Of a stretch of 64,000 nt of DNA, positions 6,306-53,428 are shown piece by piece; position 1 is the stretch's first letter, and each line of letters starts with the position of its first letter. Made by a program: the position numbers and the translations under genes. The notes beneath the pieces are model-generated. The model had not been told where the DNA came from. It saw only the letters and a list, made by a program, of their open reading frames with translations, and searched no databases. Location: positions 62,001 through 126,000 of the forward strand of contig NZ_JQKI01000015.1 of the NCBI RefSeq assembly GCF_000745965.1. The letters run 5' to 3'. The stretch comes from Edaphobacter aggregans DSM 19364. GTDB lineage: Bacteria > Acidobacteriota > Terriglobia > Terriglobales > Acidobacteriaceae.

Positions 6306-8569
<2,264 letters not shown>

Positions 8570-34723: not shown

Positions 34724-35199
34724 CTATGCGGACCAACGCGATGCCGTGGGGGTCTCGCTGTTCGCGGCGGGGGCGGGAGTGACGAAGCGCTCCTCGCGGG
34801 TGCGCAGCTCACGCGGCAGAACTTTGCCGGCTTCGGGATCGCGAGCTGCGATCACCCACGCGTCGCGGACGTTGCGGATGCAGGCGATGACCTCGTGGAA
34901 CTGTTCGACGGACTCGTGGTGCGAGGCTTCGAGCGCCATGGTGAACATGGTGGCGTAGAAGTCGGAGAGAGACTGCGCGGTGCTGCCGCCGAGGTCGGGA
35001 CGCAGGCGTGCCTGAAGATACATCAGCACATCGAGCGCGCGATGCACGGCGATGCGGCGCCCGCGCACGTCGCCTTCTTCGACGCACTGCGCTGCGCGGT
35101 ACAGGAAGCGGATTGCGCCGTCGTAGAGGGCGACGATGAGTTCCATGCCAGTCGCACCGACCAGCGCCTGCTGCTGATAGCTCGTTTCCGTCGTGGCCT
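34724..35199 (-). pseudogene. fliS: fliS, flagellin chaperone, start codon apparently lost
   Basis: The FliS fold is recognisable: MELIVALYDGAIRFLYRAAQCVEEGD, a long helical middle and a variable tail. In-frame codons upstream of the first ATG (35146) read like a FliS N-terminus (TETSYQQQALVGATG), but no start codon occurs before the fliD stop. Adding one A after + strand position 35198 would restore ATG GCC ACG ACG, i.e. MATTETSYQQQ. So one base seems to be missing at the start. A shortened 140-residue protein from 35146 would lack the first helix. Confidence 0.75.
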
Positions 35200-35202
35200 C
35201 GT

Positions 35203-36580
35203 TTACTGGTTGCCTGTGTCGAAGCCGGTTACGGCGCTGTAGAGTTGGTTGATCTGGTTGATCTGGTCGGGGATCGATTGCAGGATCTGGTTGGCGAGGT
35301 TGAGCTGGTTGGTCAGGCGCACTTTGTCGTCGGCGATTCTGGCATCCTGGTCGCTGATGCTTTCGTTCAGAGCGGCCTCCTGGGCGGTATTCTGCTGCAT
35401 CGCGAGAAAAAGGACGCCCTTGGTCGAGGTGCTGCTCAGGCCGTTGAGGGTCTTGGTGAAGCTTTGGCCGAAGCTGTCGGAGTTTTGCAGGAAGCCTTCG
35501 ATGTCTGAGAAGTTAGTATTGAGCGCGGTGTCGAGTTGGCTGGCGTCGAGGCTCAGCTTCCCGAACTGATCTACCGAGATGCCGAGCTGCTGCAGGCTCT
35601 TGATGGAGCCGCTGGCGGCGCCCGACAGAAGGCCCTGCGTGAGCTGGTTCTGGATCAACGCGACGGTGGGGTCGCCGTACAGCTGCTCGGGATTGCCGCT
35701 GGAGTCCTTGCCCTCCTGGGTCTTGATGTCGGAGATCACGGTGTTGTAAGCCGTGACGAAGTTGCTCACCGCCTGTTCGATGGAGCTGTTGTCGTTGGTG
35801 ATCTGCACCTGCACGGGTTGGCTCGTGTTTGGCGATACCGATAGAATCTGGAAGGTTACGCCGGGGATGAGGCCGGTAACGGTGTTTGATGCGCTCGTCG
35901 TGTCCAGGCCGTCGACGTTGAGGCTTGCGTCCAGGCCCTGCTGACCCTGTTGGAACGATATCGTGCTGCCGGTCGTCGCGTCGGTTAGCGAACCGCTCAG
36001 CGCAATCTGTCCCGCGGCGCCGCTGGTCTTGCTGACCAGCGAGAGACGCGAGCCGGTGGTGTCCGTCACTACGCTTGCCGCCACGCCGATCGAAGCGGCG
36101 TTGATGGAGGCTGCCAGAAGCGGCAATGTGTTGTTGGAGCTGTCGATCGTGATGGTCTGGCTCTGCCCGGAGCCGATCTGGATCGTCAGTGAGCCGCTGA
36201 GCGTGTCACTGGCCTTGGTGATCCGGGTCGGAGTACTGCGACGACGTCTGTGCCAGGTGATTGACGACGATGGTATGGCTGCCAGCGGTCGCAAGGTTGC
36301 TGGCCGAGGTCAGCGCGACGACGTTGGTGTCGGAGCTTGAGCCCTGCTTCGAGGCGAAGACCCCGCTGAAGTCTGTGAGGGTCTGAAGCGAGGAAGAGAG
36401 CGTGGCGAGATGCGTGCCGAATGAACTGAGCGCGGTGTCCTGCGCCTGCAGGTTTGTCAGCTGCGTCTTCCATGGCGTCTCGATGCCCTGTTCGATCGCG
36501 AGGATCTGATTCACCGTGGAGGTTACGTCGAACCCGTTTCCGCTGTTGACCGAACCGAAGTTGATCCCGACTGTTGCCAT
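35203..36580 (-). pseudogene. fliD: fliD, flagellar filament cap, with a +1 frameshift
   Basis: The N-terminal part (from ATG 36580) reads MATVGINFGSVNSGNGFDV, then QILAIEQG, and ends out of frame after LAQTSSQYSD. The rest continues in another frame from ITKASDTLSGSLTIQIG to INQLYSAVTGFDTGNQ at 35203. Total length is 3n+1, and removing one base from the CCGGG run at 36223-36227 would join the two as SDPITKASD. The intact product would be 458 residues, normal for FliD, with the usual coiled terminal regions. Adjacent to fliS. Confidence 0.85.
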
Positions 36581-36625
36581 TCTTCCTCCACGATGCAGGG
36601 CGATGAAGCTGATAGAGCAACTGCG

Positions 36626-36656
36626 CTGCCTAATCCTCGGTTGGAGGATTAGGCAG
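36626..36656 (-). terminator. Hairpin between fliC and fliD
   Basis: Perfect 13-bp stem CTGCCTAATCCTC (36626-36638) / GAGGATTAGGCAG (36644-36656) with a 5-base loop, downstream of fliC. No T-run follows on the minus strand, so it may stabilise the transcript end rather than terminate. Confidence 0.55.
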
Positions 36657-36733
36657 TCTTAACCTTCGTTACCGAAGAGAAGTCGGCGGACGAGCATGTT
36701 CATTCGCTCGCCGCCGTCTCTCCTGTCCACGTT

Positions 36734-37589
36734 TTACTGGAGCAGCTTCAGGACGTCCTGCTGGACGGGGTTGGCCTGCGAGAGCGCTGCGATACCCGTC
36801 TGGCTGAGCACCTTGAACTTGGCCATGTCGCTGGTGGCCTGGCCGTAGTTGGTCGCACGTACGTTGTTCTCGGCGGAGGTCAGGTTGACCGACTCGGCGC
36901 TGGCGACGTTCGACGCTGCGTTGAGCTGGTTGATGTTGGCGCCGATCGTACCTCGCTGGTAGGCGACATCCTGAATCGCAGTGGTAAGGCTGGTGAGCAC
37001 ATTCTGTGCCATCCCCGAGGACAGCGTCGCAACACCGACCGCAGTGAAGTCCACGCCAGCACCTGCCGATGACGTGCCCACGCTGGCCGTGGTCAGAGCG
37101 CCGATCGTCTCACTGAATGTAGTCGCTCCTGAGGCTGTGCCATCGCTTACAAATACGTTCGTGGCGGTCGCCGAAAACACGCTATTGCCGTTGAAGTTGG
37201 TGGTCGAGCCGATGTTGCCGATCTCGGTGAGGATGTTCTGGTACTCCTGGTTGGCCGAGCTGACCTGCGAGGAGTTCAGTGTGCCGTTGGCGGCCTCAGT
37301 CGCCAGTGTCACGGCGCGGTTGAGGAGGTTGGTGACCTGCGACAGGGCGCCGTCGGCGGTCTGCAGCAGGCCGACGCCGGAAGACGCGTTCTGCGCCGAC
37401 TGCCTGAGGGCGGCGACGTTGGCGTGGAGGCCGTCGGCGAGCGCCAGGCGTGCGGCGTCGTCGGCGCCGCTGGTTGATGCGCGAACCGGATGAGAGCTGC
37501 GTGAGCGTGTTCTGCAGGCTCATCTGCGTCTGGTTCAGATTGGTCTGCGCGTAGATTGCTGCGATGTTATTCAGTACACCCAAGGACAT
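36734..37589 (-). pseudogene. fliC: fliC, flagellin, with a +1 frameshift near the N-terminus
   Basis: Starts MSLGVLNNIAAIYAQTN, then LQNTLTQLSSGSRIN, the conserved flagellin D0/D1 start. It then leaves frame; the continuation in another frame is SGADDAARLALADGLHANV onward to LSQANPVQQDVLKLLQ. The length is 3n+1 and one extra base in the GG at 37472-37473 explains the shift (RIN-SGADDAA when removed). The repaired protein would be 284 residues, a short flagellin with little D2/D3 domain. ACAGGAG precedes the ATG. Confidence 0.87.
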
Positions 37590-37648
37590 GGGAAAGGCTC
37601 CTGTAACGCTCGATTTGAGTTGCCGCGCTGCCTGTCCCGGGTGCTGAT

Positions 37649-37666
37649 CCGGGCCGTTGGGCCCGG
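37649..37666. promoter_or_regulatory. Palindrome in the fliC-flbD divergent intergenic region
   Basis: CCGGGCC-GTTG-GGCCCGG lies between the divergent fliC and flbD starts (gap 37590-37821). It could be a regulator site or a leader hairpin. I could not recognise a sigma-28 or sigma-54 promoter with confidence. Confidence 0.35.
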
Positions 37667-37821
37667 TTCACCTTGCGATAGGCGTTGCGTTCTCCCACCT
37701 CATCGGCGCGGTGTCGTGCGACTTGAGGCGCAGGCGAATTTTTCTCTGGTTACCTTGTGGTCGAGCCGGCCTATCGATATGGGCGGCGCCGCCGATGAGA
37801 GGCCTGAGAGGAACGATTCCC

Positions 37822-38100
37822 ATGATCGAACTGACGCGCCTGAACGGCAGCCGCCTCAGCCTGAACTGCGATCTGATCAAGCAGGCGGAGTCGGCCCCGG
37901 ATACGGTGCTGACCTTAATTACAGGAGAGAAACTGGTGGTGCTGGAGCCGCGCAGCGAGGTGACTCGCAGGACGCTGGACTATCGCGCGGCGGTGCTGCG
38001 CGCGGCGTGGCCGGACGCGGCGTCAGCGCTGAGCGCGAAGACTGCGCGCCACGCTCAGGATGTTGTGGAGCGAGCGGATGCTGACGAAGCCGCGACCTAA
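37822..38100 (+). CDS. flbD: FlbD-family flagellar protein
   Basis: 92 residues from ATG 37822. The N-terminus MIELTRLNGSRLSLNCDLI and the ITGEKLVVLEPRSEV block match FlbD (swarming/flagellar protein, usually encoded just before motA). Its role is unclear. It has an Ala-rich C-terminal tail of about 35 residues beyond the usual domain. It is the only motility gene here without a reading-frame problem. motA follows after 34 bases. Confidence 0.85.
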   Translation: MIELTRLNGSRLSLNCDLIKQAESAPDTVLTLITGEKLVVLEPRSEVTRRTLDYRAAVLRAAWPDAASALSAKTARHAQDVVERADADEAAT

Positions 38101-38134
38101 TCGATACCAGTTTTGCTTCTGAAGAGGAGTTTAT

Positions 38135-38913
38135 ATGGATATCGCCAGCATTGGAGGCATTCTGCTCGCCGTGGTCGGCATTCTGGCCGGCATGATGATC
38201 GAGGGCGGAAACATCGGCCAAATTACGCAGCCTACGGCGGCGATGATCGTGGTCGGCGGCACGATGGGAGCGGTGATGCTGCAGTTTCCGCTGAAGACGT
38301 TTCTGGCTGCGCTGAAGCAGGCGATGCGGATCTTATCTCGGGTGGGTCGGATGGCGACGAGGTGCTGAAGCAGCTGGTGCAGTTTGCCAACAAGGCTCGC
38401 AAGAGCGGCATCGTGTCGCTCGACCAGGACCTGGGATCGGTGAGCGACCCGTTTCTGAAGCAGGCTCTGATGCTGGCGATCGACGGCACGGAGCCGAACG
38501 AGGTTCGGAAGATCATGCAGTTGGAGTTGGATAACAAGGCCGAGATGGAGGAGAAGATTCCTCAGGTTTTTGAAGCTGCGGGTGGGTACTCGCCGACGGT
38601 CGGGATCATCGGCGCGGTGCTGGGGCTGATCCAGGTGATGCAGCATCTGGACAATATTACCGAGGTGGGCCGGGGGATCGCGGTGGCGTTTGTGGCGACG
38701 ATCTACGGTGTCGCGCTGGCGAACCTGATCTGTCTTCCGGCGGCGGGGAAGCTGAAGATCCGCCATCGCGAGGATCAGATGGTGAAGGAGATGATGCTGG
38801 AGGGAGTGATCTCGATCCTGGAGGGGATGAATCCCAGGATGATGGAGACGAAGCTGAAGACCTTCCTGCTGGACGCAAAGGACGGCGAGAGCGTTGCGGA
38901 GGCCGCAGCGTGA
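38135..38913 (+). pseudogene. motA: motA, flagellar motor stator, frameshifted
   Basis: ATG 38135 has a GAGGAG site. The first frame gives MDIASIGGILLAVVGILAGM, then QITQPTAAMIVVGGTMGAV and LKTFLAALKQAMRI, then runs to a stop near 38368. The normal MotA continuation (GDEVLKQLVQFANKARKSG, then PTVGIIGAVLGLIQVMQ, to the end at 38913) is in another frame. Length is 3n+2, consistent with one missing base around 38325-38350. The intact protein would be about 259 residues with four membrane helices, forming the proton or sodium stator with MotB. Confidence 0.82.
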
Positions 38914-39667
38914 GCCGCAAGAAGAAGCATGAGCATGTGAACCACGAGCGGTGGCTGGTCTCGTATGCAGACTTCATCACGCTGCTGTTTGCGTTCTTCG
39001 TGGTGCTGTTTGCTTCGAGCCAGTCGGACAAGAAGAAGCAGATTCAGATTGCGGCGGTGATGCAGACGGCGTTCACTCCGCTAGGGACCTTCGAGGCTCA
39101 CTCGAAGGAGCCTTCGCTGGCGGATGCGGGGAGTGGTGGGGCGGTGCTGCAGCCGGCGGCGCTGGCGCTGCCGTTTCCGCAGGCGGCTTCGGAGATGCGG
39201 GAGGCGGAGACCGAGGCTCGGCTGGGGAGGTTGGTGAAGGCTCAGATGGCCGGCGGGAGGCTTCCGGCGGGCAGTTTGTCGGTGCGGATGACTCCGGAAG
39301 GTCTGGTTGTCTCGCTGAACGAGGTTGGATCTTTGCTTCGGGCTCGGCGGTGGTGAGGCCGGAGGCGGTGGAGGCGGTTGCGGCGCTGGCGGCGACGCTG
39401 CCGGACGCTCCGTTGCGCGTGGAGGGGCACACGGACAATGTTCCGATTCACACGGCGCAGTTCGGGGCGAACTGGGAGCTTTCGGCGGCTCGGTCGAGTG
39501 CGATTGCTCGGCTGCTGCTGGAGCGGGGCACGATGCATCCGTCGAACGTTGCGGCTGCGGGGTATGCGGAGTTTCATCCCTTGGCTTCGAATGCGACCGA
39601 GGAGGGCCGGAGGGCGAACCGCAGGGTGGACGTTATTGTTTTGCGATCCCGAGGACCTTCACGATGA
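38910..39667 (+). pseudogene. motB: motB, flagellar motor stator, with a -1 frameshift
   Basis: GTG 38910 overlaps the motA stop (GTGA). The first frame has the MotB anchor VSYADFITLLFAFFVVLFA with the ion-carrying Asp, and ends at 39356 soon after LVVSLNEVG. The peptidoglycan-binding OmpA-like domain (FASGSAVVRPEAVEAV, VEGHTDNVPIHTAQFGANWE, AARSSAIARLLL) follows in another frame to 39667. One missing base near 39328-39334 would restore NEVG-FFASGSAVV. Length 3n+2. The 3' end overlaps yjbQ by 35 bases, convergent. Confidence 0.85.
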
Positions 39668-53087: not shown

Positions 53088-53428
53088 GAGGCGTCCTCCG
53101 ACGGTGCGAGAAAGCGGGCGAGGATGGCGGTGGTCTGTTCCCAGGAGCGGGCCTCTTTGTGCAGGAGGTGGCGGCCGGCGCGGGTGAGGGAGTAGAACTT
53201 TGCGCGGCGGTTGTTCTCCGACTGGCCCCACTCGGAGGCGATGGCTCCCTCCTGCTCGAGGCGGAGGAGCGCGGGGTAGAGGGTGCCGTAGTTGAGCGAG
53301 AGCAGATCGCCGCTGGTCTGCTCGATGCGGCGGGCGATGCCGTAGCCGTGAAGCGGTCCCATGGACTCGATGGTCTTGAGGACCATCAGTGCTAGTGTGC
53401 CTTGCCAAACGTCGGTTTTGTCGCCCAT
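53084..53428 (-). CDS. PadR-family transcriptional regulator
   Basis: 114 residues. Winged-helix PadR pattern: GTLALMVLKTIESMGPLHGYGIARRIEQTS, LLSLNYGTLYPALLRLEQEGAIASEW, RAKFYSLTRAGRHLL, and a short C-terminal helix. It belongs to the short PadR group that accompanies ADOP permeases in Acidobacteria. Translationally coupled to the permease; possible self-complementary TGGCAATAG/CTATTGCCA-like sequence occurs upstream around 53429-53490. Confidence 0.93.
   Translation of the reverse strand: MGDKTDVWQGTLALMVLKTIESMGPLHGYGIARRIEQTSGDLLSLNYGTLYPALLRLEQEGAIASEWGQSENNRRAKFYSLTRAGRHLLHKEARSWEQTTAILARFLAPSEDAS

Follow-up and report, generated by a model that had tools for sequence, protein, structure and literature searches.

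The decay of flagellar genes is known from bacteria that have turned non-motile, as typified by Shigella, in which deletion is accompanied by frameshifts in the genes that remain. Most cases of this type concern host-adapted bacteria. The locus described here, from the genome of Edaphobacter aggregans DSM 19364 (G000), displays the same combination of deletion and frameshifts, but in a large genome (8.18 Mb) whose named relatives are free-living bacteria of soil. It is a clear further instance of a known process, and of an ordinary kind, and its value lies in capturing flagellar loss at an early stage, within a genus of soil bacteria that includes genomes with and without FliG, where large deletions and small-scale decay are both visible. 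E. aggregans is listed as non-motile and E. modestus as motile in a tabulation within PMC11354219, parts of which also give soil as the habitat of Edaphobacter species. No report of this flagellar decay was found in the literature searched by titles and abstract openings, and the main text of PMC5900883 contains neither "flagell" nor "motility".

The DNA analysed, referred to here as the window, is a stretch of 64,000 nucleotides (G000:C10:62001-126000) that includes a cluster of six flagellar genes (Table 1). The same genes, in the same order and on the same strands as here, namely fliS-fliD-fliC and flbD-motA-motB, are found in congeners, for instance in Edaphobacter modestus DSM 18101 (L014); whereas the aligned parts of these genes are single-frame in the congeners, four of them are split between frames in E. 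aggregans. The sites of the shifts were placed by tblastn with proteins from the loci of seven relatives, by aligning the DNA of as many as 16 relatives (six of the 16 cover the motB site), and by a check of all six genes against relatives' loci. An initial annotation of the window, made from its letters alone, had proposed one single-base indel in each of fliD, fliC, motA and motB, and the homology alignments agree, with one net single-base shift in each gene at places where the aligned parts of relatives stay in one frame. In fliC, the Flagellin_N match itself falls in two places and in different frames. That annotation had also held flbD to be clean, as it is, and fliS to have lost a base, which it has not. 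All 150 of the 150 reference residues of FliS align in one frame, and the codon at 35191-35189, which is ATG in several relatives, is not a start codon here; as read from the DNA, the defect is a substitution of the start codon with no base missing. Identity to the E. modestus proteins, taken piece by piece over the six genes, ranges from 61 to 92%, and no nonsense change was seen.

Table 1. Flagellar genes of the window, with positions counted from its first base
Gene	Position	Strand	State	Domain evidence
fliS (filament chaperone) remnant	34724..35188	-	frame open; relatives' start codon substituted	Pfam FliS
fliD (filament cap) pseudogene	35203..36580	-	net +1 shift near 36223-36227	FliD_N and FliD_C on halves in different frames
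fliC (flagellin) pseudogene	36734..37589	-	net +1 shift near 37472	Flagellin_C in 3' piece
flbD, intact	37822..38100	+	single frame	Pfam FlbD
motA (stator) pseudogene	38135..38913	+	net -1 shift near 38332-38347	MotA_ExbB in 3' piece
motB (stator) pseudogene	38910..39667	+	net -1 shift near 39308-39331	MotB_plug and OmpA on halves in different frames

The six-gene check set the loci of 28 relatives beside the window, among them that of G032, the species that supplied the reference proteins. Within these 28 loci, fliS and fliD were each found in 26, fliC and motB in 27, and flbD and motA in all 28, and the aligned part was single-frame in every gene found, some of the alignments being partial (e.g. 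fliC in G001 and G046). The comparison with the fliC, fliD and motAB genes of relatives that the initial annotation had suggested revealed, over the aligned parts, no relative sharing the split frames. The motA piece has its best matches, within the named genome collection, in Edaphobacter and other Acidobacteriaceae. Two relatives each bear one internal stop in a stator gene, G046 in motA (L207) and G049 in motB (L194).

A cluster of frameshifts can be judged better by what the genome lacks elsewhere than by the sites alone, and here the main event is the loss of the core flagellar machine. The assembly comprises 8,177,135 bases in 345 contigs, with a completeness of 100 and a contamination of 7.21. 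No match to FliG_C was found in it with all 17 of 17 candidates scored, nor any match to the rod/hook family Flg_bb_rod with all 35 of 35 scored, the latter being a negative that is weak alone, as the model spans only 31 positions and the FlgB of one relative falls just under its cut-off. A FliG match is present in 52 of the 62 genomes of the genus. The core cluster of G001 extends over 18 kb and encodes FliF, a FliI-type ATPase, FlgE, FliP, FliR, FlhB and FliM, as identified with Pfam, together with FlhA and FliG, as identified by search. Strong matches to this cluster occur in 9 of the 11 other congeners searched (the exceptions are G004, without a match, and G008, with a single short one), and G000 returned only two weak matches, both on contig C29 (14 of 102 candidates scored).

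Both C29 matches fall in a locus for non-flagellar type III secretion, a gene cluster at L110:5209-17766 (G000:C29:5209-17766). SctV, SctN and SctQ meet their NCBIfam cut-offs there; SctS is at its cut-off, yet scores higher as FliQ; and SctJ, SctL, SctT and SctU are the best or near-best names while falling under theirs. An intact flagellum served by an FlhA encoded on C29 was considered and rejected, given that the FlhA-like protein of this contig is 38-41% identical to the FlhA proteins of relatives and has SctV as its best-scoring name.

A second flagellar locus, on contig C19, has been truncated. A segment of 5.9 kb in L185 and L187 corresponds to 123 bp in G000, a loss of about 5.8 kb; the comparison with L186 gives the same picture, its gap being slightly wider, and L188 shows one side only. 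The deletion lies inside the contig and takes FlgF, FlgG, FlgH and FlgI together with the front of FlgK, the names FlgF and FlgH resting on scores below the curated cut-offs. The remaining stump of flgK is split over two frames in four of four comparisons, and flgL is whole at the same locus. A search of the rest of the genome for fli, flg and flh genes, also suggested by the initial annotation, thus found neither FliG nor the rod/hook family, no core cluster beyond the two weak C29 matches among the candidates scored, and a second locus with a 5.8 kb deletion.

On this evidence from sequence, the damaged genes of the window are very probably recent pseudogenes left after the loss of the flagellum, and the product neither of regulated frameshifting nor of local sequence error only. 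The core cluster, with its MS ring, switch, hook and export genes, would have been lost; flgF, flgG, flgH and flgI, along with the front of flgK, are deleted at the second locus. From the established roles of these proteins, without a basal body, a hook and a flagellar export gate no filament can be built, and there is nothing for a stator to drive. The genes that remain would then have been released from selection and be decaying, each apparently seen at, or close to, the first change that disabled it; any order of these events is conjectural, and a mobile element beside one flank of the lost cluster may have taken part. The earlier suggestion of a recent and possibly simultaneous loss of motility is therefore retained in its first part, and more strongly than the window alone would allow, given that FliG, the rod/hook family and the core cluster were not found and 5.8 kb is deleted at the second locus; simultaneity is no more than a possibility. 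The points that weigh against the preferred reading are a missense load that is not significantly raised, the lack of any nonsense change, the whole state of flbD and flgL, the scoring of a part of the candidates in the DNA searches for the core cluster, the weakness of the Flg_bb_rod negative, and an assembly of 345 contigs with a contamination of 7.21.

The missense load was gauged from private changes at otherwise invariant columns, with 16 of 681 columns so changed for the six genes and 15 of 1060 for the controls (p 0.19). The references were E. modestus proteins for the six genes but window proteins for the control genes, a possible source of bias. Two control genes were left out because too few taxa (6 of 12) were available. 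The relatives G051, G062 and G023 display larger or more significant excesses, and motB alone, with 7 of 113, has the highest count among 12 taxa. As the load is not significantly raised, either the decay is recent or some of the indels could still be errors; the decay looks young.

An error of sequencing or assembly confined to this locus, by which the indels would be artefacts and the genes whole in the cell, is the best surviving of the alternatives and is itself unlikely. Four indels within 5 kb, with neither a significant excess of missense changes nor a single nonsense change, are what such an error might leave. The background of apparent frame changes was measured with an ab initio HMM for frame changes, trained on long frames from the genome itself, which clearly called 53 of 84 planted shifts and called 69 of the 84 at all. 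In 1,011,665 bases of this genome outside the window its strict calls numbered 26, and the loci of relatives, some of which overlap, gave 22 in 1,346,091 bases. This background predicts 0.13 calls per 4,944 bases and, set beside the four indels, also counts on the side of local error. The rate in G000 (26 in 1.01 Mb) is thus of the same order as that in the relatives (22 in 1.35 Mb), which speaks against error as the cause and led to the rejection of poor sequence throughout the genome. Also against local error, the flgK stump is split between frames on a different contig, in a gene already truncated, and the core machine is absent in any case, so that decay is to be expected. A purely local error, which the initial annotation had offered as an alternative, is unlikely as the sole cause in view of this further frame split, and error at individual sites could be a minor rival. 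Among the 26 strict calls, 5 lie in one TonB-receptor-like gene, and at least 6 lie in L180:13965-15901 (G000:C4), about 2 kb with almost no stops in any of the three forward frames; the latter calls are probably false, and the stretch, rather than being a pseudogene, is probably repetitive DNA or coding DNA of an unusual sort.

Within the window, the raw path of the HMM contains seven switches, those of fliD, fliC and motA and those at 35206, 38905, 6373 and 53109, and it misses motB; the method being imperfect in this way, homology is the basis for the four shifts, and the HMM serves as background only. The strict filter retains 6373, 35206 and 36223, the last of which is the fliD shift. The switch at 35206 marks the junction of fliS and fliD, and that at 38905, seen in the raw path only, the junction of motA and motB. 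Position 6373 has an SDR gene on one side and a DUF3175 gene on the other, and the raw switch at 53109 lies between genes for a MacB/FtsX-type permease and a PadR-type regulator. The extra switches thus fall between separate genes or at junctions, and no further real frameshift was found by this method in the rest of the window, as the initial annotation had stated.

A staged course of loss is improbable as a complete account. It would have the basal body, hook and export gate go first, by deletion and rearrangement, and the filament and stator genes later, indel by indel, with flbD and flgL kept for another role, all in a free-living genus and in a genome whose sole FlhA-family protein found belongs to non-flagellar type III secretion.

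The flanks of the lost core cluster bear on whether it is missing from the cell or from the assembly. With G010 as guide, the left flank was located at C19:47121-52457 (40 of 133 candidates scored) and the right flank at C11:89394-101174 (40 of 105 scored). Of the stretch that lies between them in the guide, G000 yielded, apart from the C29 matches, only scattered ones to a region around query base 7100-7600 and a few further short matches. The C19 flank continues, inside the contig, into other genes, lexA being followed by groEL and groES. The C11 flank adjoins, also inside its contig, an IS5-like transposase gene whose Pfam transposase domain is over its cut-off and whose NCBIfam IS5 score is just under. 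About 4 kb past this transposase gene is a TonB-receptor-like outer-membrane gene (L200:3889-6644; G000:C11:105889-108644), which is broken over three frames, its pieces corresponding one after another to consecutive parts of a single Pfam model, and after it a phage-type integrase gene.

That the cluster is present in the cell and merely absent from a fragmented assembly, with damage confined to the genes of the window, might be suspected from the 345 contigs, from the placement of the two flanks on separate contigs and from DNA searches in which part of the candidates were scored. It is nevertheless very unlikely, as both flanks run on into other genes inside contigs and not to contig ends, the second deletion also lies within a contig, the completeness is 100, and FliG was not found with all candidates scored. 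Regulated (programmed) frameshifting, another alternative of the initial annotation, would yield full-length proteins from the split frames and might account for one shift per gene in otherwise well-kept coding sequence, but it can be dismissed almost entirely, given that the aligned genes in the 28 relatives' loci are single-frame and need no shift, that the shifts here run in both directions, and that the genome is without the machine these proteins serve.

The preferred reading, of recent pseudogenes after flagellum loss, has points of comparison within the genus. Like G000, the genome G065 (99% complete) has no FliG match. It is also without a FlgL or MotA match, whereas G000 keeps remnants, and G065 is apparently without flagellar genes of the FliG, FlgL and MotA families. 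A further genome of the genus, G031 (99% complete; L205 and L206), has motA and flgL, with no FliG match, and its genes of the types found in the window are single-frame; G031 is possibly another case of flagellar loss.
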